DNA from: Micrococcales bacterium KH10
GTDB taxonomy: Bacteria; Actinomycetota; Actinomycetes; Actinomycetales; Cellulomonadaceae
DNA: 64,000 bases
Assembly (NCBI GenBank): GCA_900188465.1
Contig: FZPE01000002.1
Coordinates: 1-64,000 of the forward strand
Reading direction: 5' to 3'
Made by a program: the position numbers and the translations under genes. A model generated the notes under the pieces. The model ran no database searches. It was not told the DNA's origin and saw only the letters and a program-made list of their open reading frames with translations. Within the stretch, counting starts at the first letter, position 1. The number at the start of each line of letters is the position of its first letter. This document shows, piece by piece, positions 6,184-28,445 of the stretch.

Positions 6184-7071
6184 TCAGCGGGCGGACGTCA
6201 CCGCAAGAGTGGACGAGCACACCCCGGCAGCATCCCACTCACGTGCGATACCCGCAGCATGCTCCGCATCACGCGCCAGCGCCGCGACCGTCGGCCCAGA
6301 CCCGGAAACCACGGTGCCCAACGCACCAGCAGCGGACGCCACCGAAAGCACATCCCCCAATCGCGGCATCAAGGCCAGTGCGACCGGCTGCAGGTCGTTG
6401 TGAAGACAGGCACCGATAGCCGCCAGGTCTCCAGCGCGCAACGCGTCGATAAGCTCACGTTCCGCATCCACGCGCAGCGCACTGACACCCATGGCGTCGA
6501 CCTCCCGGTACACTGCGGCAGTCGATAATCCCTCGTCCTGGAAACCCAAAGCGAAATGCAACTGTGCCGCTGATTCCAACGGCTGGATCACGTCGCCGCG
6601 TCCAGTCCCGAGCGCCACGCCACCGACAACGGTGAACGGAACGTCGGCCCCCAACGGGCGCGCCAGCACTGCGAGCTGACGCCGGTGCAGGCCAACATTC
6701 CATAACTCGTTCAGCGCCAGCAGAGTGGCACCCGCGTCAGCGGATCCGCCACCCATACCGCCTTCGACCGGCACACCCTTGGTGATCTCAATCGCGACAT
6801 CGGGCGAACGCCCCACCCATTGGGCGAGCAGTTGCGCAGCCTGAACGGCCAGGTTGGACTCGTCCAATGGCACCCGGTCCGCATGTAAACCCTGCACCGA
6901 GACCCGAAGCTCATCGGCAGGGCTCACCGTGACGGATTCAGGCAGCGACAACGAGGCAAAAACGGTCCGCAGCGGGTGGTAGCCCTCATGATCCACCGGG
7001 CCAGAACGCAGTGACAGATTCACTTTGCCCCAGGTGCGCGCAGTGACCGACGTGCTCAGCGATTCGTTCAT
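6184..7071 (-). CDS. ispE: 4-diphosphocytidyl-2-C-methyl-D-erythritol kinase
   Basis: GHMP-family kinase of the non-mevalonate (MEP) isoprenoid pathway; phosphorylates CDP-methylerythritol at the 2-hydroxyl. The protein is 295 aa. Seen: N-terminal [28 protein letters not shown], the GHMP phosphate-binding loop [17 protein letters not shown] at about residues 103-119, and the C-terminal [14 protein letters not shown]. The ATG overlaps the ksgA stop by 4 bp, so the two are translationally coupled at the end of the tatD-rpf-ksgA-ispE gene line. Confidence 0.96.
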
Positions 7072-7972: not shown

Positions 7973-9064
7973 TCAGTACCAGTGCTTGGCCTGGAAGTGC
8001 GCCCAGGCACCACATGGCGTCTTATAACGGCCCTTGACGTAGCCGAGTCCCCACTTGATTTGAGTCTCGGCGGAAGTCTTCCAGTCAGCGCCCGCACTGG
8101 CCATCTTGGAACCGGGCATCGCCTGCGGGATGCCGTAGGCACCAGAGGAAGTGTTGTGGGCCGTCACCCGCCAGCCGCTCTCGCGCTGCCACAGTGCATC
8201 GAGGCACTTGAATTCGTCATCGCCCCAGCCGCGGTCCTTCAGCATCTTCTTCGCAATCGCACGAGCCGAGCCTGGCTGCACCTTCGCACCGGTGGGCACG
8301 CTGAACGGTTCTTTGGTGCCGACGCTCACGACTTTGTCGCGTGGTTCAGAGACCACAGCAGACGCGATTTCGACGCGGGAGACTTCCACGCCGTCAACGA
8401 CTTGAACCGAATAGGTGGTCAAGCGTTCACCGGCGGTGCCTTCGGTTTTAACGACCTTCTTCCCCTTGTCGAGGGTCGAGTCGTTTTCCTTTTTCGTCTT
8501 GAAAGCGATCTCTTCGGTCACAGTGACCGTTTCAGTCGCCGCACTGGCTACCGTCACTGTCGCCCCATCGGTCAAAACCTCATCCAGACCTGGAGAAACG
8601 ACATCGCCCTCAACCAACACGACGTCAAGTTCCTTGAGCACTGTGCGCACGTCGGCGGCGTGTGTAGCCAGTTCCTGGCTCTGACCGTCAATGGCGACTG
8701 TGACGTTCACCAGCGGGCCACGCTGGTCAGCGGCGGAACGAGATGCCGCGCTGGCGCGGGTGATCAGATCGGCGCCGCCGTCCACGAGGCGCACGGCGAC
8801 TTGGTCACCATCGCTGATGGGCTGGTCGAGCGCTGGAGCAACGATCTCTCCATCTGCCACCGATATCCCTGCAGCCTCCAGGGCAGAGGCAACTGTGCCG
8901 CCGAAGGTCGTGACCGTGACGACGTTACCGTTGTGGTCGACTTCGATGCGCTTATGTGCCGAGGCGTACCCGACCGTCCCGACAGCCAACACAGCCACAA
9001 CTGTGCCGCGTGCGACCCAATTGGTCACACGGCGTCGAGCGGATGTACGTTTCGGATCAGTCAC
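7973..9064 (-). CDS. RpfB-like secreted cell-wall hydrolase (DUF348 x2, G5, transglycosylase)
   Basis: The start chosen is GTG 9064 with GAGGA 8-12 bp upstream (363 aa); the longer frame would reach into tatD. Order: basic N-terminus and a membrane/signal segment (about 17-37); two DUF348 (YabE-type) ubiquitin-like domains ([19 protein letters not shown] and [18 protein letters not shown]); a G5 domain ([27 protein letters not shown]); then a C-terminal lytic-transglycosylase-like domain (about 280-363) with a probable catalytic Glu in WQRESGW and [13 protein letters not shown]. It occupies the conserved rpfB place between tatD and ksgA, but the catalytic module is of the soluble-transglycosylase kind rather than the compact Rpf domain of mycobacteria. 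Expected to cleave peptidoglycan outside the membrane. Confidence 0.9.
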
Positions 9065-11893: not shown

Positions 11894-12736
11894 TCACCTG
11901 GTGGCGAGCACAGCCTCATAAAGTTCTCGTTTTGAAACACCATGCCCGGCAGCCACCTGCGCCACTGCTTCCTTGAGCCGCGCACCGTGATCAGTCAGTT
12001 CGATGACATTGCCGACGAGTTCTGCCACGCTTTTCACTGCTTGCTGCTGTGCGCCTGCAACGACGATCACGAACTCGCCGCGCGGGGTCTCGGGCAACTG
12101 CTCCAGTACGTCGCTGATGCTGCCGCGCAGCACCTCTTCGTAGGTTTTTGTCAGTTCCCGGCACGCGGCGACGGAGCGCTCGTCGCCGAACACCTCGCCC
12201 ATGACCGTCAAGGTTTCACGTACTCGGTGCGGCGACTCGAAAAACACCAGCGTGCGCGGGTCGGTGGCGACTGCTTCGAACGTGCGTCGCTTCTCCCCTG
12301 TTTTACGTGGGATGAAGCCCTCGAAGGTGAACCGGTCGGTAGCAAGCCCCGAGATGGCGAGCGCGGTGAGCACTGCCGAAGGACCGGGCGCAACAGTGAC
12401 GGGTAGGTCGCGGGAGGTGGCTGCGGCGATCAGCGGATAGCCGGGGTCGGAAATCGTGGGCATTCCGGCATCGGAGACCACCAGGACGAGTTGCCCTGCT
12501 GCGACTGCGTCAAGCAGATCGCCCGTGCGGGCACTTTCATTGTGCTCGTGATGAGAGATGACCTTGGCGCTGACGGTGACGTCGAGGCGACGGGCAAGGT
12601 CGCGGAATTTGCGGGTGTCTTCGGCTGCGATGAGGTCGGCGGTCTCGATCAGTTCACGCAGCCGCAGGGAGGCATCGGCGGCGTTTCCTATCGGCGTAGC
12701 GGCTAGCACGAGCATTCCGGCGGACGAGTCACTCAT
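11894..12736 (-). CDS. rsmI: 16S rRNA (cytidine1402-2'-O)-methyltransferase
   Basis: SAM-dependent enzyme that methylates the ribose of C1402 in the ribosomal P site. Length 280 aa from ATG 12736 (MSDSSAGMLVLAATPIGN). Family motifs are LVLAATPIGNAADASLR, AAEDTRKFRDL, LVVSDAGMPTISDPGYPL, VAPGPSAVLTALAISGL, and FFESPHRV. The longer upstream frame is rejected because the family N-terminus starts at LVLAATPIGN. It lies 34 bp upstream of the metG start and both are on the minus strand. Confidence 0.96.
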   Translation of the reverse strand: MSDSSAGMLVLAATPIGNAADASLRLRELIETADLIAAEDTRKFRDLARRLDVTVSAKVISHHEHNESARTGDLLDAVAAGQLVLVVSDAGMPTISDPGYPLIAAATSRDLPVTVAPGPSAVLTALAISGLATDRFTFEGFIPRKTGEKRRTFEAVATDPRTLVFFESPHRVRETLTVMGEVFGDERSVAACRELTKTYEEVLRGSISDVLEQLPETPRGEFVIVVAGAQQQAVKSVAELVGNVIELTDHGARLKEAVAQVAAGHGVSKRELYEAVLATR

Positions 12737-12824
12737 GGTCTTTAGGGTGTCACACCCACCAGCAATCGCCGGTTGATACCAACTACTACTCGCGGGAAAG
12801 TGGAGTACTGGGATGCTGAAAGAA

Positions 12825-13139
12825 CTAAGATTCCGGGAGAACGCGTTTCGCCACGGCCTGCATATCGCGGCCAAGCCCGCCCAGTCGGTCATCGACCCGT
12901 TGGAAACGCAACTCCATCTCGGTGCGCAATGAACCCATCTCGTTGCGCAATGAACCGACCTGGGTCGTCATCTCACTGCGCAGCGAACCGACCTGAGTCG
13001 TCATCTCGTTACGCAGTGACGTGATCTGCCCGGTAATCGTGCGCAGCATGACCTGCGTGATGACGGCGATGGTGCCAACCAACGTGGCAGCAAGCACCGA
13101 GATGATGGTCCATGTCTGCGGCTCGGTCAATTCGATCAC
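12825..13139 (-). CDS. Small membrane-anchored coiled-coil protein with internal repeats
   Basis: The start is uncertain; GTG 13139 (VIELTEPQTWTIISVLAATLV) gives 104 aa, and longer in-frame starts exist. One transmembrane segment (about residues 10-30, TIISVLAATLVGTIAVITQV) is followed by a heptad-like helix built from near-identical 11-residue units (SLRNEMTTQVG, SLRSEMTTQVG, then shorter SLRNEMG and SLRTEME). It ends ERFQRVDDRLGGL-like, resembling small actinobacterial proteins of this plan with no known function. The matching 33-bp DNA units suggest expansion by slippage. It is between rsmI (same strand) and the divergent mannosyltransferase. Confidence 0.65.
   Translation of the reverse strand: MIELTEPQTWTIISVLAATLVGTIAVITQVMLRTITGQITSLRNEMTTQVGSLRSEMTTQVGSLRNEMGSLRTEMELRFQRVDDRLGGLGRDMQAVAKRVLPES
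12915..13018. repeat. Tandem 33-bp coding repeats
   Basis: Within the coiled-coil gene, units reading (reverse strand) CTGCGC-ARYGAGATGACGACYCAGGTCGGTTC recur about twice in full and twice shortened. They correspond to SLR(N/S)EMTTQVG. Confidence 0.75.
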
Positions 13140-13260
13140 TCTCCCATTGTTACGGCTTACCACCGAATATGCCAGGCCTGTTCGTAGCGGGGACTCCCCA
13201 CACCCGCATTGTGGAGAACTCGTCCCCGCGGCAACCGGGAATACACCAGCACTCGGTAGC

Positions 13261-15024
13261 ATGGGCCGGGTGCACGATCTTGACGAGCCCGCCGCCCCAG
13301 AGGTCTTAGGCGACACGTCAGACGAGGCACAGCAGAACTCGTCCTATCAGGATCACCTCGACCGCTTTCATCGGCTACTTTTTCGTCCCCGAGAACTCGC
13401 CCTCGGATCGACTGCCCACGACCGCCTGTGGGGCTGGCTCGGCCCAGCCTTAGTCACTTTGCTGGGTGGCCTCCTGAGGTTGATCAACCTCGGGAATCCA
13501 GCCGAACTCGTCTTCGATGAGACGTACTACGTCAAGGACGGGTATGCGCTGATTGAACTCGGCTACGAGGCACGTTGGCCCGACGACGCCAACGACCAGT
13601 TCGCCGCAGGACAAGCCGATCTATACAGCACAAGCGCCACCTATACCGTGCACCCCCAAGTCGGAAAACTGCTGATCGGATGGGGCATCCGCCTCGGTGG
13701 CGTAGAAAACCCCTGGGCCTGGCGACTCGCCACCGCCCTATTGGGCACAGCGGCAATCTTCGTCCTGGCTCGCACCGCGCGGCGCATCCTCGGGTCCACC
13801 GTCATGGGCACTGTTGCCGGCGGCCTGCTGGCTCTGGACGGTATGGGCATTGTGCTGGCCCGGACCGCATTGCTGGACGGCATCTTGATGTTCTTCATCG
13901 TGGTGGCCTTCGCCTGCTTAGTCGCTGATCGGTTCCAGTCCCGGCATCGTCTTGCGGCACGCGCCGCCACCATGATGGCGGCGGGCGGCGACCTGAGCAT
14001 GATGAAGCCGGGACTGGGCTGGCGGTGGTGGCGGCTCGCCGCGGGTGTCTCGTTGGGGCTGGCCTGCGGAACAAAATGGTCCGGCTTCTACGCCTTGGCG
14101 GTCTTCGGCATCGTCACGGTGTGGTGGGACCTGGGCGCACGACGAGCAGTGGCGGGACAGCGCTGGGGGTGGACCTGGCTGGTGCGCGATGCGATTCCTG
14201 CCTTCGGCGCACTGGTGCCAACAGCGCTGGTCACCTACGTCGCGTCATGGTGGTCGTGGTTCGCCCACCCGCAGTCTTGGGGGCGCCTGTGGCATACCGA
14301 AAATCCTGCTGCGCTACCCGGCTGGTTGCCCGACGGGTTACAGAGCTGGTGGGACGTGGGCCGATCCTGGTGGCACCACCACGCCACGATGTTGGACTTC
14401 CACGCCACATTGGACGACCCGCACCGTTACCAGGCGAATCCTTATTTATGGCCGTTGCAAGTGCGGCCAACCTCGTTCTACTGGGAAGAGACCGAAGGGC
14501 CGTGCGGCGGCTCTGACACCTGCGTGCAGGTCATCACCTCGCTTGGCAACCCCCTGTTGTGGTGGCTCGCGGTGGCGGCCTTCGGCCTTGCGCTATGGCG
14601 GCTCATTCATCATCGGGATTGGCGTGCCGGAGCCGTCATCGCCGGGTACTGCGCAGTGTGGGTGCCCTGGTTCTTCTTCGCTCACCGCACGATCTTCACG
14701 TTCTACATGGTGGCTCTGGCACCCTTTGCGGCGCTCGCGGTCGCCTACGCGGCCCAAGTGTTGTTGGAGCGGTGTACCGTTTCGCCGCGTGATGTGGAAT
14801 TGGCGGCGCGGACGGCACCGGGCGGGGTGCGAACCCGGGCGGAGCTGAACGCTCGCAGGCGGGTTCGTGTCGCCGCCCGGCGGCTGCGACACACGAAGTT
14901 CTGGTTCGCCGCTGCATTGGCTTCAATTGCCGCGATGACACTGTTCTTCTACCCGATCTGGACAGCCTGGAACGTGCCCTACTTGTTCTGGTTAGTGCAC
15001 ATGTGGTCACCAACCTGGATTTAG
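13261..15024 (+). CDS. pmt: Dolichyl/polyprenyl-phosphate-mannose--protein mannosyltransferase
   Basis: GT-C fold integral membrane enzyme that transfers mannose from polyprenyl-phosphate mannose to Ser/Thr of secreted proteins. 587 aa from ATG 13261 (GTG 13270 also possible). The catalytic acidic pair is in LVFDETYYVKDGY after the first transmembrane helix; then YTVHPQVGKLLIGWGI and many hydrophobic helices (GTAAIFVLARTARR, LALDGMGIVLARTALLDGILMF), a large extracytoplasmic loop with HPQSWGRLWHTENP and FHATLDDPHRYQANPYLWPLQ, and C-terminal helices with FFFAHRTIFTFY. It is divergent from rsmI, the order seen in mycobacteria (Rv1002c/Rv1003). Confidence 0.94.
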   Translation: MGRVHDLDEPAAPEVLGDTSDEAQQNSSYQDHLDRFHRLLFRPRELALGSTAHDRLWGWLGPALVTLLGGLLRLINLGNPAELVFDETYYVKDGYALIELGYEARWPDDANDQFAAGQADLYSTSATYTVHPQVGKLLIGWGIRLGGVENPWAWRLATALLGTAAIFVLARTARRILGSTVMGTVAGGLLALDGMGIVLARTALLDGILMFFIVVAFACLVADRFQSRHRLAARAATMMAAGGDLSMMKPGLGWRWWRLAAGVSLGLACGTKWSGFYALAVFGIVTVWWDLGARRAVAGQRWGWTWLVRDAIPAFGALVPTALVTYVASWWSWFAHPQSWGRLWHTENPAALPGWLPDGLQSWWDVGRSWWHHHATMLDFHATLDDPHRYQANPYLWPLQVRPTSFYWEETEGPCGGSDTCVQVITSLGNPLLWWLAVAAFGLALWRLIHHRDWRAGAVIAGYCAVWVPWFFFAHRTIFTFYMVALAPFAALAVAYAAQVLLERCTVSPRDVELAARTAPGGVRTRAELNARRRVRVAARRLRHTKFWFAAALASIAAMTLFFYPIWTAWNVPYLFWLVHMWSPTWI

Positions 15025-21003: not shown

Positions 21004-22896
21004 TCATTCCGCAGCAGTTAAGCCACCGCAGTTTTGGTTCACATCACAGTCCACCAGCCAAGACCCGACTGATTCAACCCATCCGGCGGGCTGGTGGTTC
21101 CAATAGTCCTTGTTATCCACGATGGAGAACGCCGCAACTGCCTGAGTAAAACCGGGAGTTACGATAGCCACCTGTTTGTCCACGGCGATGATGTGGGCGT
21201 TGCGGACCCAGAGTTGTTGTCCGGTGCCGAGGTCGCGTCCGCTCACTTCATTGGGAAGAGCGGAATCCGCCGACGGCGGCACATCAACCACCACTATCCC
21301 GCCACCCAGATGGACGGATACGCCATAATCCTCCGGTTCGGAGACCTTTGCCTCCCATAAGGGCACATCCCAATTCCCGATGTGAAAAGCAGTGATCTCG
21401 CCCGCAGCCTGCACTAGGACGACGTCACCATCGCTCTGCACGCTGGTCGTCAGCCCAATATCGGAGGGAACTGTCACGGGTAACGGTGTCGTAGCGCCTG
21501 TGGTTGTGTCTATTACTTGATATGGCTGCCAGTCATGGTCTTCTTCTGAAACCGGTTGAGGCGGAGTGTCCGTGATCCAGCGCGACCCCTGACGCCAGTG
21601 CAGCGGCTCCTCTGAAACCAACAGTTCTTCGCCGTTGGCCGAGTCAAGAGCGATATAGGTGGATCCTGAGTTGTATTCGGTGCACACCACGACTTCGTCA
21701 TCCTCGTATGCGCTCTCGTCGAAATCGCAGGTCACTGGTCTGCTGACCTGCAGAACAACAGCGTCCTCAATGGCGGCATTCTCAAATGACGTGAATGCCC
21801 AATCATCATCGGCATGGGCAACAAGTGTCTCAAGATAGTCGGCTGCAAGCGACACATCGCTATGCCACAACCGTTCGTCGTTACGAACCGCAGCGAAACG
21901 CACAAAACCTTCCTGCTGGTTCGGCGTTGCAGTGATGATCAGACCATGGGCACCAACCCAAGAACCATTGGGGGTAACTAGGCGTTGACCGGTACGACCG
22001 TCGAATGCAATTTCACGCGCCTCACCCTCTTGATTGAAATAAGTACAAATGACCAGGTCTTGACCGCTGAGCCGACAACTGTCGTATTCGTCGCCGTCCT
22101 CGAAGTTTTGGGAATCTATCACCCAGTTGATGACCCCTTTGGTCAGATCAACACCGAAGTGCACGTTCACCTCATGTCTTCCGGCGATCAGTCCCTCAGT
22201 ACCGATCAAGCGGGAACTCTCGGCGGTCACCGTGACCAGCCCGCGATCGCCATGTCCTTGCCAGACAAATATCGGTTCCGATCCGAACGCCAGCCCAGCG
22301 CGGCTCGCTGCTCGCGCAAAATCGTTGGGCGTCAGCGTCCACGCTTTCTCCGGAATAGTGAGGTACGAGCGCATCGTGACGTCTTGCCCCGGTGCCGGTT
22401 TTGACGGAGACCACTTCCAAACTGCGGCAGTGCCAAGCACCGCAATCAGTGCGACAACGGCGGCCGCAACTAACCAACGCTTCCGTCGCGGGTTTTTCCG
22501 CTCGTTATTCGTTGAACCAGCACCAACGAAGCCTCCTGGCAGTGAAGCATCTTCGTTAGGTGTGCCGAATGTTCGAGCTACTCGTGAACCCTCGATCAGG
22601 TAATGGGAGTCGTTCTGGCTGGTCTGCGCTGACGATTGCGGGATGACGGCATCTGGTGAGAGGCGAACCAGAATGAGCGGGCGATCCCAGCCGCCGGGCG
22701 GTGGCTGTCGCCATGCCAGCACGGCATCGACTTGTGGGTCTTGCAGTGCGAGCAAAGCGTCAAGCACTCGAACGTCAGCACGCGGGTGGCCAGCGATTTG
22801 CGGAGCCAATGCTGAACTGTATTCCAGTGCCGCTAGAAGTTGTTCCGGTGTACTAGCCCCCGATCCGACGATTTCTCGAGCTTCTTCCGGGTTCAT
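21004..22896 (-). CDS. Membrane-anchored beta-propeller protein with N-terminal LRV-like domain
   Basis: 630 aa. The N-terminal about 70 residues (EEAREIVGSGASTPEQLLAAL, APQIAGHPRADVRVLDALLA) resemble the helical leucine-rich-repeat-variant domain of many actinobacterial proteins. A basic stretch and a single transmembrane helix follow (about 138-160, WLVAAAVVALIAVLGTAAVW). The large C-terminal part has beta-propeller-like strands and six or more Cys, predicted outside the cell (DSCRLSGQDLVICTYFNQEG, AFDGRTGQRLVTPNG, TYIALDSANGEELL, DLGTGQQLWVRNAHIIAVD); these resemble PQQ-type repeats. Function unknown. The ATG overlaps the upstream DUF4229 gene by 4 bp. Confidence 0.8.
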   Translation of the reverse strand: MNPEEAREIVGSGASTPEQLLAALEYSSALAPQIAGHPRADVRVLDALLALQDPQVDAVLAWRQPPPGGWDRPLILVRLSPDAVIPQSSAQTSQNDSHYLIEGSRVARTFGTPNEDASLPGGFVGAGSTNNERKNPRRKRWLVAAAVVALIAVLGTAAVWKWSPSKPAPGQDVTMRSYLTIPEKAWTLTPNDFARAASRAGLAFGSEPIFVWQGHGDRGLVTVTAESSRLIGTEGLIAGRHEVNVHFGVDLTKGVINWVIDSQNFEDGDEYDSCRLSGQDLVICTYFNQEGEAREIAFDGRTGQRLVTPNGSWVGAHGLIITATPNQQEGFVRFAAVRNDERLWHSDVSLAADYLETLVAHADDDWAFTSFENAAIEDAVVLQVSRPVTCDFDESAYEDDEVVVCTEYNSGSTYIALDSANGEELLVSEEPLHWRQGSRWITDTPPQPVSEEDHDWQPYQVIDTTTGATTPLPVTVPSDIGLTTSVQSDGDVVLVQAAGEITAFHIGNWDVPLWEAKVSEPEDYGVSVHLGGGIVVVDVPPSADSALPNEVSGRDLGTGQQLWVRNAHIIAVDKQVAIVTPGFTQAVAAFSIVDNKDYWNHQPAGWVESVGSWLVDCDVNQNCGGLTAAE

Positions 22897-23249: not shown

Positions 23250-23846
23250 TTAGCCAGAGAAATCCGGACCCAACTTGGCATCGAGACACTCGACCTGCGG
23301 ATCAACACCCATATCCCGCAACTGCTCAGACTTCTCCCACACCAGCAGCCGCGGCTCCTCACCCCGCTCACGCAAGCACTCCGCCAACACCCCGGCCTCA
23401 ACGCCCCAGTTGTCACGATGCCAACCCCAGAGCGTATTGACCGAGTCGAATTCCTCGGCGAGACACTGATCGTGCCGCTCAAGTGAGTCACCCACATCTT
23501 CGAACCGGTAATCGATGACCTGATTCTCCTCACCCATCACCTCCACATTGACACCAGCAGCACCAGCACAAGCACGAAACCGCTGGAACGCCGCTTGATA
23601 CTCGTCATAGGTAATCTCGCCGTCAGCCAACACCGCACGCTGCGCGTCAGACATCTCATACCCTGTGCCACGAACCAGGTCTTCCGGGTCAAACCCCTCA
23701 TTCCATTTCAACGCCACCGCCGCCGCCGTCGGCATCTCCGTCGCGACCGACTCACCCGAACCCGACGAACAGCCTACAATCCCAACAAGACAAACAAAAG
23801 CGACAAATGCCGCAGAAACTGTTTGACCAAAACATCTGAAGATCAT
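23250..23846 (-). CDS. Hypothetical lipoprotein
   Basis: 198 aa from ATG 23846, chosen because GGAG lies 8 bp upstream. The signal sequence ends in a lipobox (LVGIVGC). The mature part starts with a Ser/Gly/Thr-rich linker and is acidic, with three or more Cys (RACAGAAGV, HDQCLAEE, ECLRERGEE, VECLDAKLG). It contains YEMSDAQRAVLADGEITYDEYQAAFQRFRAC, a pattern seen in small actinobacterial lipoproteins of unknown function. Downstream of, and convergent to, nothing obvious; it starts about 130 bp from the divergent secreted-protein gene. Confidence 0.8.
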   Translation of the reverse strand: MIFRCFGQTVSAAFVAFVCLVGIVGCSSGSGESVATEMPTAAAVALKWNEGFDPEDLVRGTGYEMSDAQRAVLADGEITYDEYQAAFQRFRACAGAAGVNVEVMGEENQVIDYRFEDVGDSLERHDQCLAEEFDSVNTLWGWHRDNWGVEAGVLAECLRERGEEPRLLVWEKSEQLRDMGVDPQVECLDAKLGPDFSG

Positions 23847-23974
23847 CGCACTCAGCTCCTTTGCCAATTGCCTTTCCCACTATTAAGTATAGAGTATTTC
23901 CTAAGCAGTAAAAATCCGCTGCTTACTGGCGGTTCAACGACGAACCGCAACCCGACTCAACGAGGAGAAGGGTC

Positions 23975-24361
23975 ATGACATTCCGACACAAATTCGCGGC
24001 TGTCATCACGGCCGCAGTCACCCTGGTCGCCACTGGATTCCTGGCGGCACCGGCCAACGCCACCCAAACCAAGACTGAGTATTGTGGCACTGCCGGAATC
24101 TATGGCACTTGGGAAGCCTGGAACAACCAATCCACCAAGAAAGCCGGCAGTCGCCACGCCACCGGACCTCTGTGCAGTTACTACAAGGTGCGTATCCGTT
24201 ACGAAGTCCCGACCACGGGGACAAGGTACTGGGCGACGTGGGCGACAAATACTGCAGGGAACTACGCCGTCACCCAGAACAGTCCCAGCGGCTACCCACT
24301 CATCAAGGCCGAGCACCGCGTGGTGAAAAACGGGTCCGTCTACACCGTGACGACTATCTAG
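23975..24361 (+). CDS. Small secreted protein with two cysteines, candidate export cargo
   Basis: 128 aa from ATG 23975 with GGAG upstream. A clear Sec signal peptide (FAAVITAAVTLVATGFLAAP) ends ANA, leaving a mature chain of about 99 residues that is basic and aromatic-rich. Two Cys (EYCGTAG and PLCSYYK) could form one disulfide. A C-terminal beta-rich part (RIRYEVPTTGTRYWATWA, VVKNGSVYTVTTI) follows. I do not recognise the family; it is not a clear lactococcin-972 or lantibiotic. A strong hairpin follows the stop and then an adaptor-ABC transporter set on the same strand, which suggests, without proving, that this protein and the transporter work together. Confidence 0.8.
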   Translation: MTFRHKFAAVITAAVTLVATGFLAAPANATQTKTEYCGTAGIYGTWEAWNNQSTKKAGSRHATGPLCSYYKVRIRYEVPTTGTRYWATWATNTAGNYAVTQNSPSGYPLIKAEHRVVKNGSVYTVTTI

Positions 24362-24377
24362 TCGGTTGACAGTGGCA

Positions 24378-24415
24378 GGTGGGTTGCGGATTCAGTCCGT
24401 CATCCGCAACCCACC
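24378..24415 (+). terminator. Hairpin after the secreted-protein gene
   Basis: GGTGGGTTGCGGAT and ATCCGCAACCCACC are perfect 14-bp arms with a 10-nt loop, 17 bp after the stop codon. No U-tract follows. It could terminate most transcripts and allow limited read-through to the transporter genes, giving more secreted protein than transporter. Confidence 0.7.
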
Positions 24416-24563
24416 GGTTCACCGGAATACCTTGCCACTAGCAAGAACTCAAGTCCACACCGGGTTTGACCGACTAGATTGTTCATAAGGAAAGTCCCGT
24501 GACAGCGATTTCCGTCACTGGGCACACCGGTGTCACACAGAGCAGAACGAACAGGTTCACGAA

Positions 24564-25733
24564 ATGTCAGGTCAGCATCAACAGCGTGGCCGCGGGCGGG
24601 GGTTGTGGCGTTCGCTGATATTCGTTCTCCCGCTGCTCGCGGTTTGGGCGATCCCCGTCTCGGTTCTCACGATGGTCGCGCCCGCAGTTGAGGAAGCCGA
24701 AGCTGAACGGGTCACTCCTGTTGAGCCGGACACGATTCCAGTCGGCTCACGTTCGTCAGACCAAGCCACCAGCGTGGGCCTGTCAGTCGGGTTCGGTCAA
24801 TCCGCCTCAGTGGCAGTGCGGGCCTCCGGCCTGGTCACAGCGGTCCATCTGAGCCCCGGAAAATCCGTCAAACAATGCCGTGCGCTTATTGACATCAATG
24901 ACGTTCCAGTGCTTGCCTACCGAGCAAAAGCCCCGCTCTTCCGTGACCTCGCTGTCAAAGACAAAGGCACTGATGTGCAAGCACTTGCTCAGTACCTAGT
25001 TGCCTGTGGCACCCTCGACAAGGCCGACATATCAAACACCTTTACGAGCCAGATCGAAAGTGCGGTCAAGACGCTACAACGCGACGTCTTAAAAGTGAAA
25101 GACACTGGAGAGTTCGCCACATCTTACGTGGCGTTCATTCCCCGCGAGGTAAAACTCGTCAAAACAATTCCGGTAACCATTGGAGACGAGGTCAACCCAG
25201 GCACAGAAATCATTTCCGTCAGCGGCCCGCCGCAGTCAGTCACTATTGTTGATCCCGATCTCGGTCAACCACTAGATCTTTCTGCCCCAGATGGTTACGT
25301 CCTGCATAGCGGCGAGACGAGCATCAACATTGCTGGTTCAATCATCCCAGAAGATCAACTGGTTGAAATCAATCAGTTCATCAGTGACGCTGTCGCGATC
25401 GGTTCGCTGTCTGGCCGGGCTGTCAATTCTGACGTAGACGGTGAACCAGGTAGCGGCTCTGCCACCGAGTTCTACAGTGGCGCAACAATCACCACACATT
25501 CAGTCACGGAAACAGGTGCTGTTCCATCTAGTGCCATCTATGCCAGCCCCAGCGGAGTCACCTGCGTCTTCGTTTCTTCAAGTGGCTCCGACTATGAACC
25601 GGTAGCAATCAGTGAACTCCAAATGATCAAGGGTGAGTTGGGAAGTATCGGGGTACCTGCTGATCTGATCGGCAAGAGCGTGGTACGTGATCCCACAGCA
25701 CTCCCTGCTGAAGTGGCAACGTCATGCGGGTAG
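24564..25733 (+). CDS. Membrane-fusion/adaptor-like protein with peptidoglycan-binding domain
   Basis: 389 aa. A basic N-terminus and one transmembrane segment (about 15-40, SLIFVLPLLAVWAIPVSVLTMV) place the rest outside. A region reading VAVRASGLVTAVHLSPGKSVKQCRALIDINDVPVLAYR resembles the biotinyl-lipoyl/HlyD-type hairpin start. A peptidoglycan-binding-1-like domain follows (about 130-190, FRDLAVKDKGTDVQALAQYLVACG, IESAVKTLQRDVL), then a second beta domain (KTIPVTIGDEVNPGTEIISVSG). This matches actinobacterial periplasmic adaptors paired with MacB-type exporters. The stop overlaps the ATPase start by 10 bp, so the three genes form one operon. Confidence 0.82.
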   Translation: MSGQHQQRGRGRGLWRSLIFVLPLLAVWAIPVSVLTMVAPAVEEAEAERVTPVEPDTIPVGSRSSDQATSVGLSVGFGQSASVAVRASGLVTAVHLSPGKSVKQCRALIDINDVPVLAYRAKAPLFRDLAVKDKGTDVQALAQYLVACGTLDKADISNTFTSQIESAVKTLQRDVLKVKDTGEFATSYVAFIPREVKLVKTIPVTIGDEVNPGTEIISVSGPPQSVTIVDPDLGQPLDLSAPDGYVLHSGETSINIAGSIIPEDQLVEINQFISDAVAIGSLSGRAVNSDVDGEPGSGSATEFYSGATITTHSVTETGAVPSSAIYASPSGVTCVFVSSSGSDYEPVAISELQMIKGELGSIGVPADLIGKSVVRDPTALPAEVATSCG

Positions 25734-26356
25734 AAGTTCGTGGTGCCACACTTGGATTTGGCAAACGCATAGTCTTCGAAGATCTCGACGCAGATTTTCC
25801 ACACGGCAAGGTCACAGCACTGGTTGGCCCTTCTGGCTCCGGTAAATCATCGTTGCTCGCAGCCATGGCCGGATACATCAAACTTCGTGCCGGAACTATT
25901 AGTGGTGTAGCAGCTGACCAGAGGACACCGCTTGATGCGTCCATGGTTGCCTGGGTGCCACAAGGCTCAAACGCGTTGGGCGGCAGAAGCTCTCTGGAAA
26001 ACGTGATGATCGGTGCTCTCGCCGATGGAGCACAGTGGAACGAAGCACGCGACGATGCGCTGTCGGCACTCGCCCAAGTCGAAATGATTGACTTGGCGAA
26101 CAAAAGTGCACGGTCTCTGTCAGGCGGGGAGTTACAGCGCGTTAACTTTGCGAGGGCACTCGCGACCCGCAAACCCCTCGTCTTTGCCGACGAACCGTCC
26201 GCGTCATTAGATGCAGTCAACACTCGCCGTGTTGCAGAGCTGCTGTTCTCGCTACGGTCACGAGCAACCATCATCGTTGCCACACATGACCCGCTCCTTG
26301 TCGAGGCTGCCGAACACCAAGTGAATCTGCGTCAGGAGTTCAGCCATGCAGCGTGA
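25724..26356 (+). CDS. ABC transporter ATP-binding protein
   Basis: 210 aa, ATP-hydrolysing subunit of the adjacent permease. Walker A LVGPSGSGKSSLLAAMAGYI (about residues 33-52), signature RSLSGGELQRVNFARALATRKPLVFADEPSASLD with Walker B, and H-loop TIIVATHDPLL. Size and signature fit the MacB/LolD class that drives FtsX-fold permeases. It overlaps the genes on both sides (10 bp and 11 bp). Confidence 0.95.
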   Translation: MRVEVRGATLGFGKRIVFEDLDADFPHGKVTALVGPSGSGKSSLLAAMAGYIKLRAGTISGVAADQRTPLDASMVAWVPQGSNALGGRSSLENVMIGALADGAQWNEARDDALSALAQVEMIDLANKSARSLSGGELQRVNFARALATRKPLVFADEPSASLDAVNTRRVAELLFSLRSRATIIVATHDPLLVEAAEHQVNLRQEFSHAA

Positions 26357-27386
26357 CAGGTGGCGGCTCGCTCCATTCCTTCACGAAGCCGCACGCAATG
26401 TCTTTGACTTCCGGGCCAAACTCTTTCCCGCGGTACTACTCGCCGTTCTCGCCGGTTCCGGGCTGGCCGCGATCAGCGCCATCGAATCAACGGGGATCGA
26501 GAACCAACTCAAAGACCTGCAACAGCAAGGCAGGCTCGTCTACACCCTGACCTCGCAAGATCCCTCCAAGCCGGTCGAAATTGACCGCGCATCGTGCGAG
26601 GCGTTGGCCGACCAACCCGGTGTCGATCGTGCGGGTCTGGTCAAGGGAATCGGATTTTACGACGTCCCCCAAATTGGCACCGGCATGATCATCTCAGCTG
26701 CCTCGTCGTCACTATTTCCTGAACTCACCACACACGGCGCGCTCGTCGGCTCCGCGCTGCGTGAATCCGGCCCAGCATTCAACCTGAAATTGCCTGATGG
26801 GTACGTGGCTCAAGCAATGGTGTTGCCGGCACAGCCCAGCGGCATCGATACAAACTCAATGGTGCTCGTCCCGCTGCGTGCTGATCAACAAACCGGCGAC
26901 AGTTGCCGGGTCGTGTTCGAGCGACACGGCAACCCTAAAGAAGCCGGAGACCGCGCCCTCGCGTCGTTACAGGCGCATGGATCAGAACCTCTTGTCGCAA
27001 ACACGCCCCACCAAGAGAACATTGATCCGGTCGCGGCATACCTCAAACGAGCATCCCGGTTCTTGCCACTCTTGATCGGGATACTCGGTGGTTTTGCAGC
27101 AGCCGTGATCAACCGAGTGCGGCTCAGCGAATTCGCTGCCTATCGGTTGTCCGGCACCTCTGGGCGTTCACTCGCACTACTCATGTGGACCGAACAGGCA
27201 CTCCTCGCAGGAACTCTGGCTTCCGCGACAGCCGTTGCGACCCTTGTGCTGCGCAATTACCCGATCAGTCCAGACACCGTGATCTATGGCGGTTTGACCG
27301 CTGGTCTTGCTTGGATCGCTACCGCCACTTTATTCACTATTGACATCGCCTGGCGGCGACCAACTGACTTGGCCAAAGACCGCTAA
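26346..27386 (+). CDS. FtsX/MacB-like ABC transporter permease
   Basis: 346 aa with the FtsX-fold layout: one N-terminal transmembrane helix (about 27-48, LFPAVLLAVLAGSGLAAISAI), a large extracytoplasmic domain (to about 235) with two Cys (RASCEALADQ and GDSCRVVF), then three C-terminal helices (FLPLLIGILGGFAAAVI, ALLMWTEQALLAGTLASATAVATLVL, YGGLTAGLAWIATATLFTI). MacB-type permeases move or release substrates such as peptides, drugs or lipoproteins from the outer leaflet using the adaptor. Substrate unknown; the secreted protein at 23975 is the nearest candidate. Confidence 0.85.
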   Translation: MQRDRWRLAPFLHEAARNVFDFRAKLFPAVLLAVLAGSGLAAISAIESTGIENQLKDLQQQGRLVYTLTSQDPSKPVEIDRASCEALADQPGVDRAGLVKGIGFYDVPQIGTGMIISAASSSLFPELTTHGALVGSALRESGPAFNLKLPDGYVAQAMVLPAQPSGIDTNSMVLVPLRADQQTGDSCRVVFERHGNPKEAGDRALASLQAHGSEPLVANTPHQENIDPVAAYLKRASRFLPLLIGILGGFAAAVINRVRLSEFAAYRLSGTSGRSLALLMWTEQALLAGTLASATAVATLVLRNYPISPDTVIYGGLTAGLAWIATATLFTIDIAWRRPTDLAKDR

Positions 27387-27882: not shown

Positions 27883-28197
27883 TTATCCAAGCCTTTCTGA
27901 CCAATAGCCTGGCCGCTTTCGCTCGTGCGCGTAAGCAAGAACATAAATCTCGCGGCCGCTACGAAGGTAGACAATCTTGAATGGAAAGCCCGCAACGCTT
28001 CTCGAATAGAGTTGGGGCGAACGTTCCTGATTACGGTAGAAACCCCAGTTCACTGACGGGTCACGAATACTGTCGACCGCTGCGTCAACAGCATCCATGA
28101 AGACATCGCCCCAACCTGGCCGCTTTTCTTCGTACCATTGTGCAGCTCGGCGATATTCTTCTATGGCGTCGCGGTGTTCACGCCAATCCAGCATCAC
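27883..28197 (-). CDS. ParE/RelE superfamily toxin
   Basis: 104 aa. The family pattern is WREHRDAIEEYRRAAQWYEEKRPGWGDVFMDAVDAAVDSIRDPS at the N-terminus and RSVAGFPFKIVYLRSGREIYVLAYAHERKRPGYW at the C-terminus. Probable gyrase- or ribosome-targeting toxin. The ATG overlaps the antitoxin stop by 4 bp, the usual coupling. Confidence 0.92.
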   Translation of the reverse strand: MMLDWREHRDAIEEYRRAAQWYEEKRPGWGDVFMDAVDAAVDSIRDPSVNWGFYRNQERSPQLYSRSVAGFPFKIVYLRSGREIYVLAYAHERKRPGYWSERLG

Positions 28198-28445
28198 TTT
28201 CGAAGTGCAGCAATCTCAGCACGAATATGGTCATGCGCACGGCGCCCATCCACAAACTCGTCCGGATTGCTCAACACATCGCTCACACGGCGGTCGATTG
28301 CTTCATCCCACGCCGCATCTACGTCTGCCTGTGAAAGATCCGAATCTTCGTCCACACTAAGCAGAAGTTGGTGAGCAACTTCGAGTCGCTCGTTAACATC
28401 AAGCGCCTTGCCCGCCGCTATATACTCCGCCAATTCTGCCGTCAT
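28194..28445 (-). CDS. Addiction module antitoxin (Unstab_antitox type)
   Basis: 83 aa, acidic and helical: ELAEYIAAGKALDVNERLEVAHQLLLSVDEDSDLSQADVDAAWDEAIDRRVSDVLSN. The repeated L-x-x-R-x-x-x-A and DAAWDEAIDRRV motifs match the putative addiction-module component family that pairs with ParE-like toxins. It lies upstream of and coupled to its toxin. Confidence 0.9.
   Translation of the reverse strand: MTAELAEYIAAGKALDVNERLEVAHQLLLSVDEDSDLSQADVDAAWDEAIDRRVSDVLSNPDEFVDGRRAHDHIRAEIAALRK

Follow-up and report, generated by a model that had tools for sequence, protein, structure and literature searches.

A linked lipoprotein and MacB-like pump accompany a secreted two-cysteine protein in Micrococcales: a candidate bacteriocin-like system with two layers of self-protection

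Introduction

What is a small secreted protein doing directly ahead of an operon for an ATP-binding cassette (ABC) transporter? The question arises from a 64,000-nucleotide stretch of DNA from Micrococcales bacterium KH10 (contig FZPE01000002.1, positions 1 to 64,000; hereafter the window), an organism with a 2.8 Mb genome whose genus was taken as Rarobacter, in the order Micrococcales. A first-pass annotation, made from the letters of the window, described a signal-peptide protein followed by a hairpin, a membrane-fusion protein (MFP), an ATPase and a permease, and suggested a toxin accompanied by its own self-protection transporter. We find that the peptide gene is tied across genomes to a lipoprotein gene as well as to the transporter genes. 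Judging from comparative genomics, we think it fairly probable that this cassette encodes a bacteriocin-like protein that is secreted through Sec, probably carries a disulfide and is matched by two-layer self-protection, one layer being the lipoprotein and the other the pump.

Results

Organization of the cassette

The putative bacteriocin-like peptide is encoded at 23975..24361 on the + strand by an open reading frame (ORF) of 128 residues. Its hydrophobic leader ends in APANA, with the mature part beginning TQT (cleavage judged by eye) and comprising 99 residues with two cysteines. Just 3' of the stop codon lies a hairpin with a 12-bp stem (24380..24413, +), and this is followed by genes for an MFP with lipoyl-like and peptidoglycan-binding-like domains (24564..25733, +), an ABC ATPase (25724..26356, +) and an FtsX/MacB-like permease of 346 residues (26346..27386, +). 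The MFP and ATPase genes overlap by 10 nt and the ATPase and permease genes by 11 nt. All of these parts are present, in the order that the first-pass annotation had given. What it had overlooked is a fifth gene, upstream of the peptide gene and divergent from it, for a putative specific-immunity lipoprotein of 205 residues (23250..23867, -).

The layout of the pump, with its MFP, separate ATPase and FtsX-type permease, is that of the MacAB/YknXYZ type, with a weak match for the FtsX part. The ATPase was assigned correctly at first sight (PF00005, 5.4e-25). The peptidoglycan-binding character claimed for the MFP is sub-threshold in the window protein (PG_binding_1, E 0.002) and is supported by its homologues, eight of nine aligned members matching at E<=0.1 (best 6.7e-11). 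The claimed FtsX fold of the permease stands in part: PF02687 weakly matches 3 of 8 aligned permeases (best 3.5e-4), and the window permease itself has no Pfam match. Permeases of the MacAB/YknXYZ type have four transmembrane helices and a large extracellular domain; by simple hydropathy the window permease has three hydrophobic segments, and the permease of locus L056 has four.

Sequence and predicted structure of the peptide and the lipoprotein

Among 17 aligned mature peptides the second cysteine is invariant, within a majority pattern C-G-x-x-G-V-R-x-x-Y...G...W-x-x-W...Q-H. Searches of Pfam and NCBIfam gave no credible family for the window peptide or for any of the 17 members. Searched against the PDB by sequence, the window peptide had three matches at E 0.56-0.89, none credible, and its profile had none. 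The initial impression that the peptide belongs to no recognised family is therefore borne out in these databases, and it matches no known enzyme family. AlphaFold2 predicted an all-beta structure with moderate confidence (predicted local distance difference test, pLDDT, 70.5; predicted template modelling score, pTM, 0.64), and comparison of this model with the PDB returned weak matches to general beta-sandwiches (best Foldseek E 7.4e-3, VIA Z up to 6.9). Net charge, computed for 18 peptides, was +1.0 or more in 13.

The lipobox cysteine and four further cysteines are invariant in all 18 aligned lipoproteins. No credible Pfam or NCBIfam family was found for these proteins, that of LanI included. 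AlphaFold2 predicts a mainly helical structure with confidence (pLDDT 83.7), and this model has no clear match among PDB folds (best Foldseek E 1.2, Z up to 4.6); failed fold or sequence matches of the peptide and the lipoprotein are not proof of new folds.

Linkage across genomes

Permease searches yielded 16 loci with strong, full-length relatives of the permease: the window, one each in G001, G002, G003, G021, G046, G049, G064, G212, G357 and G538, two in G327, one in Oerskovia rustica and one in each of two Cellulosimicrobium cellulans strains. The lipoprotein gene is present at 16/16 and the peptide gene at 14 (frameshifted in G001, R. faecitabidus), the two genes of G003 sitting together on another short contig. 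The two loci that lack a peptide gene belong to G046 and to G064 (C. funkei U11). At the C. funkei locus the peptide gene has lost a net 300 nt, and what is left is a 15-codon in-frame remnant between flanks that are 91.6% and 93.2% identical to locus L023, and the lipoprotein, MFP, ATPase and permease are retained at 92-96% identity to their L023 counterparts. The G046 locus (L027) has the pump and three lipoproteins, and no peptide was found there.

In 396 genomes drawn from the order, the permease (E<1e-50) and the peptide profile (E<1e-12) each occurred in seven, six of them in common. At E<=0.001 the peptide profile matched 12 places in 10 genomes, and all 12 adjoin a lipoprotein and MFP-ATPase genes; nine of these matches had themselves entered the profile, the new ones being in G160, G305 and G371. 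Across the class, with 296 genomes sampled, the permease was found only in the window genome and G538. A tblastn search of 72,556 plasmid records matched neither peptide nor permease, and the viral contigs scanned with the permease yielded no confirmed relative. Single-sequence searches with the peptide added matches in G048 (two), G090, G098 and G110, at E 1e-4 to 0.009. The two in G048 (L013, L014) were taken as chance, as their stretches have no match to MFP, ATPase, permease or lipoprotein.

Outside Rarobacter, the gene order is peptide, lipoprotein, MFP, ATPase, permease, and at 10/10 such peptide loci a lipoprotein gene comes next after the peptide gene, in the same orientation (L023, L026, L030, L032, L033, L049-L053). 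One of these, in Oerskovia rustica (L030 2846-3508, +), has two tandem peptide genes and then a single lipoprotein gene.

The lipoprotein family extends further: 34 genomes in a set of 198 from the order have it, often together with an MFP, an ATPase and a permease. At distant pump loci a secreted small ORF stands beside the lipoprotein in L059, L127, L129, L130 and L134; none was found in L027, L054, L055, L057, L060, L061, L121 (whose lipoprotein lies near a contig end), L126, L131 or L133. Neither pump nor peptide was found with the lipoproteins of L120, L122-L125, L132 and L135, or a pump with that of L137, which was outside the peptide scan. At E 0.01 the peptide hidden Markov model (HMM) fails to recover the small ORFs of L059, L127-L130, L134 and L136, so we do not claim common ancestry with them. 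In a test that used no similarity, a secreted ORF of 80-160 residues ends near the start of 17/66 lipoprotein genes and near 38/3867 random positions in the same loci, with a strict filter that missed several known peptides, loci that share ancestry, and random points rather than gene starts as controls. The first-pass annotation had named two kinds of contrary evidence, transporter genes that are widespread without the peptide and a peptide from a known unrelated enzyme family, and it mostly withstands both. The specific permease rarely lacks the peptide gene (14 of 16 loci have it); against the annotation, the more distant loci often show no recognisable peptide, a small ORF being found at 5 of 15. 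As a separate observation, the lipoprotein gene of L054, L055 and L061 has as its neighbor an ORF of 155 residues that looks by eye like a LuxR-type regulator, hinting at regulated expression there.

Covariation and exchange of peptide-lipoprotein pairs

The pairing also shows in another genus of the same order, g33. Four of its six peptide-lipoprotein pairs have overlapping genes (L056 holds two of these pairs, L058 and L074 one each), and gaps of 11 nt (L075) and about 77 nt (L076) separate the genes of the others. Similarity among the ATPases of L056, L058 and L074 is 0.91-0.94, yet the peptide of L058 has no relation to the other two; between L056A and L074, matching peptides (0.58) go with matching lipoproteins (0.52). 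We used a partial Mantel test to measure how far the similarity of peptides follows that of lipoproteins once similarity of the ATPase is controlled for. The correlation was 0.64 for 19 sets (p 0.0001), 0.45 for the 17 left after removal of near-duplicates (p 0.0001) and 0.89 for the six of g33 alone (p 0.006). With L074 left out, the resulting 18 sets gave the same direction: 0.62 for all (p 0.0001), 0.39 with near-duplicates out (p 0.0024), 0.26 for the core (p 0.067) and 0.66 for g33 (p 0.033).

Lipoproteins also occur without their peptides. L074, in genome G305, has extra lipoproteins that are 65% and 60% identical to the partners of the L076 and L058 peptides, and L126 (G264) has one that is 63% identical to the L058 lipoprotein. 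Searches of six whole g33 genomes found the L058 peptide only in its own genome, and the L076 peptide in its own genome, in G147 (L056B) at 37% and in G305 at 32% (E 0.0019); from these searches, G305 has no close peptide partner for its two extra lipoproteins. The 32% match in G305, turned up by this blind search, proved to be a further, unlinked two-cysteine secreted peptide, unforeseen, which came with two family lipoproteins directly behind it (HMM E 2.5e-23 and 1.5e-17; peptide and lipoproteins at L138 3028-4778, -) and no pump within 9 kb. In L058, a 43-residue stretch at 8254-8382 (-) is 56% identical to the L056B peptide and may be the remnant of a lost peptide gene.

Between the Cellulosimicrobium loci L023 and L033, synonymous divergence (dS) is 0.92 for the mature peptide, 0.31 for the lipoprotein, 0.18 for the permease and 0.14 for the ATPase, and the ratio of nonsynonymous to synonymous divergence (dN/dS) for the mature peptide is 0.21. 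These values describe a constrained peptide gene and place the divergence or exchange chiefly at the peptide's end of the cassette.

Hairpins and neighboring genes

The strong hairpin noted after the peptide gene at the outset is there, its stem arms at 24380-24391 and 24402-24413. The 79-nt stretch 3' of the stop codon has a folding z of -4.45, with none of 200 shuffles as good, and the equivalent stretches of two congeners (L010, L011) have z of -4.52 and -5.58. The three Rarobacter loci thus have strong hairpins at one shared position, with different sequences. A terminator scan of the window reported no + strand T-tailed stem at this hairpin; in L010 the stem is followed by CTTTTG. Attenuation at this position is plausible, and the hairpin may instead be a stabiliser of the mRNA. 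A shorter hairpin lies in the 5' untranslated region of the peptide gene (23929..23948, +), with a 7-bp stem and the loop AACGAC in a 50-nt stretch of z -3.99. L012 has a stem-loop with the same loop and a different stem at about 6499-6518, in a stretch whose z of -1.35 is not significant.

Just downstream of the cassette, at 27883-28445 (-), is a toxin-antitoxin-like pair, in which a PF09720 addiction-module component (2.9e-9) overlaps a 104-residue ORF that has no Pfam match. On the other side, at 21004-22896 (-), a 630-residue membrane protein has a weak LRV_2 match; the R. faecitabidus cassette (L011 12032-15990, +) has similar-looking ORFs of 653 and 683 residues on its other side. The cassette of L010 is flanked by a reverse-transcriptase-like ORF (12310-13794, -), which by eye resembles the protein of a group II intron, and by further mobile-element-like ORFs. 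Anti-phage defence was considered and rejected: PADLOC gave no match for the peptide or the lipoprotein and matched only the ATPase, to ATPase models.

Discussion

We infer a mechanism for the toxicity and target of the peptide, for immunity, and for the substrate and direction of the pump. The peptide would cross the membrane by its own signal peptide, take up a small beta-sandwich fold outside and harm Gram-positive relatives at a target beyond the cytoplasm, probably the membrane or the precursors of the wall; an extracytoplasmic target is likely because both protectors would act outside. The lipoprotein would sit at the outer surface of the membrane in the producer and serve as the specific immunity protein. 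The MFP, ATPase and permease would assemble into a MacB/YknXYZ-like pump, which would clear the peptide from the membrane and pass it through the wall to the outside; the protection that it gives would be less specific, and it might also assist release. By analogy with known systems, we infer that self-protection would be specific in the lipoprotein and general in the pump. Since the peptide carries its own N-terminal signal, the ABC system is not needed for membrane crossing and is more likely to be protective, or to act after Sec. The first-pass suggestion of a toxin with a self-protection transporter is favored by the comparative genetics, with a shift of roles: the lipoprotein is the likely specific immunity protein, and the pump is more likely protective or active after Sec.

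Several observations weigh against this proposal. Five of the 18 peptides are not clearly cationic, those of L049 and L051 being near neutral or acidic (charge +0.1 and -1.3) and those of L058, L075 and L076 lying between 0 and -0.9. In Rarobacter the lipoprotein gene is divergent and not co-directional. No peptide could be found at 10 of 15 distant or peptide-less lipoprotein-pump loci, and L128, L136 and L138 have peptide-lipoprotein pairs with no pump in the stretch examined; because both arrangements occur, the pump and the pair are separable. A linked and covarying putative protector, broadly the mark of a bacteriocin and its immunity protein, is present, and in the 11 core loci the partial Mantel correlation is not significant (0.26, p 0.065). 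Covariation alone would equally fit a ligand and its receptor.

That last point is the strength of a reading in which the peptide is a signal: the lipoprotein would bind the organism's own or its neighbors' peptide and the ABC system would sense or import it, as in pheromone systems. The pairwise covariation and the regulator-like ORFs that adjoin three of the lipoproteins would suit it. A mature protein of 99 residues with disulfide cysteines is, however, large for a pheromone, the pump belongs with MFP/FtsX systems of export or protection, and no regulator adjoins the window cassette, so we regard signaling as improbable. We give marginally more weight, still as an unlikely case, to a non-toxic envelope protein that binds wall or glycan or takes part in attack on yeast, leaves through the wall after its Sec step by way of a dedicated MacAB-like machine, and has the lipoprotein as assembly chaperone or receptor. 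Carbohydrate-binding jelly rolls are among the weak fold matches of the peptide, and the cassette is carried by Rarobacter, Oerskovia and Cellulosimicrobium, which are yeast-lytic genera (as the abstract of one paper also has it for C. cellulans). It is found, however, in other families of the order too, and such a role leaves unexplained the lipoproteins without peptides, the loss of the peptide alone and the occurrence of at least two peptide-lipoprotein pairs per genome.

Membership of the lactococcin 972 bacteriocins, as a true and divergent member, is the least credible of these alternatives, and we rejected it for want of sequence, profile or locus support. Lactococcin 972 is Sec-secreted and has linked ABC genes, and the window likewise has a small Sec-type secreted protein beside an ABC system. 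TIGR03608 (L_ocin_972_ABC) is one of many ATPase models that the window ATPase matches; its score is 109.9 bits, below the cut-off of 254.85 bits set for this model. PF09683 matches 0/17 peptide members at E<=1, and hhalign gives a probability of 0.1% against six lactococcin-972-like peptides of the order (small alignments). In five of those six loci the partner genes are an ORF for a membrane protein of 435-866 residues and an ATPase, and in none of the six is there an MFP, permease or lipoprotein match.

Returning to the bacteriocin-like protein with its two protectors, we put at about an even chance a wider proposal, that the cassette belongs to an undescribed polymorphic toxin-immunity superfamily of Micrococcales. 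Its fast-changing secreted beta-sandwich toxins and four-cysteine, mainly helical lipoproteins of no recognised fold would be exchanged as pairs at loci that may or may not carry a shared MFP-ABC protector spanning the wall, and extra lipoproteins would give immunity to the toxins of neighbors. Among the matches listed from open PMC full text, judged by title and the start of the abstract, no paper concerned the peptide, lipoprotein or cassette; subscription papers and preprints were outside the scope of this search. If the bacteriocin-like reading is right, actinobacteria have an unrecognised family of secreted antibacterial proteins, and the matched pairs, unpaired lipoproteins and natural peptide deletion would form a natural system for studying the division of self-protection between a lipoprotein and a MacB-type pump in a monoderm.

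Known systems resemble the cassette in part. Lactococcin-972-like loci have one large membrane protein and an ATPase, whereas the window has an MFP, an ATPase and a 346-residue permease. The peptide model is all-beta with moderate confidence, and lactococcin 972 was not among the fold matches listed for it. Lactococcin 972 itself is described as an unmodified bacteriocin that binds lipid II (PMC9964109). In nisin producers the lipoprotein NisI and the ABC transporter NisFEG each give partial immunity; NisI is mainly beta (PMC4828448), whereas the window lipoprotein is predicted to be mainly helical. The likeness lies in the combination of a specific lipoprotein with an ABC transporter, and the lipobox cysteine of the window family fits anchoring on the outside. 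Nisin is a lanthipeptide, whereas the window peptide looks like an unmodified protein, and LanFEG transporters have two permeases and no MFP, in contrast to the MFP and single FtsX-type permease found here.

Other known systems resemble the pump itself. The pneumococcal MacAB-like pump Spr0693-0694-0695 is an MFP-ATPase-permease system of a monoderm that confers resistance to an antimicrobial peptide and was modelled to take up its substrate at the outer face of the membrane and carry it as far as the peptidoglycan layer; the part of that report at hand describes no linked secreted peptide or lipoprotein, unlike the window (PMC5768738). YknWXYZ, which shares with the window an MFP, a separate ATPase and an FtsX-type permease, protects Bacillus against its own disulfide-bearing toxin SDP (PMC4887032). 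No counterpart of its Yip1 protein YknW was identified in the window cassette. The sections of the YknWXYZ article at hand describe no lipoprotein partner (PMC4887032); the window pump, by contrast, is linked to a secreted protein.

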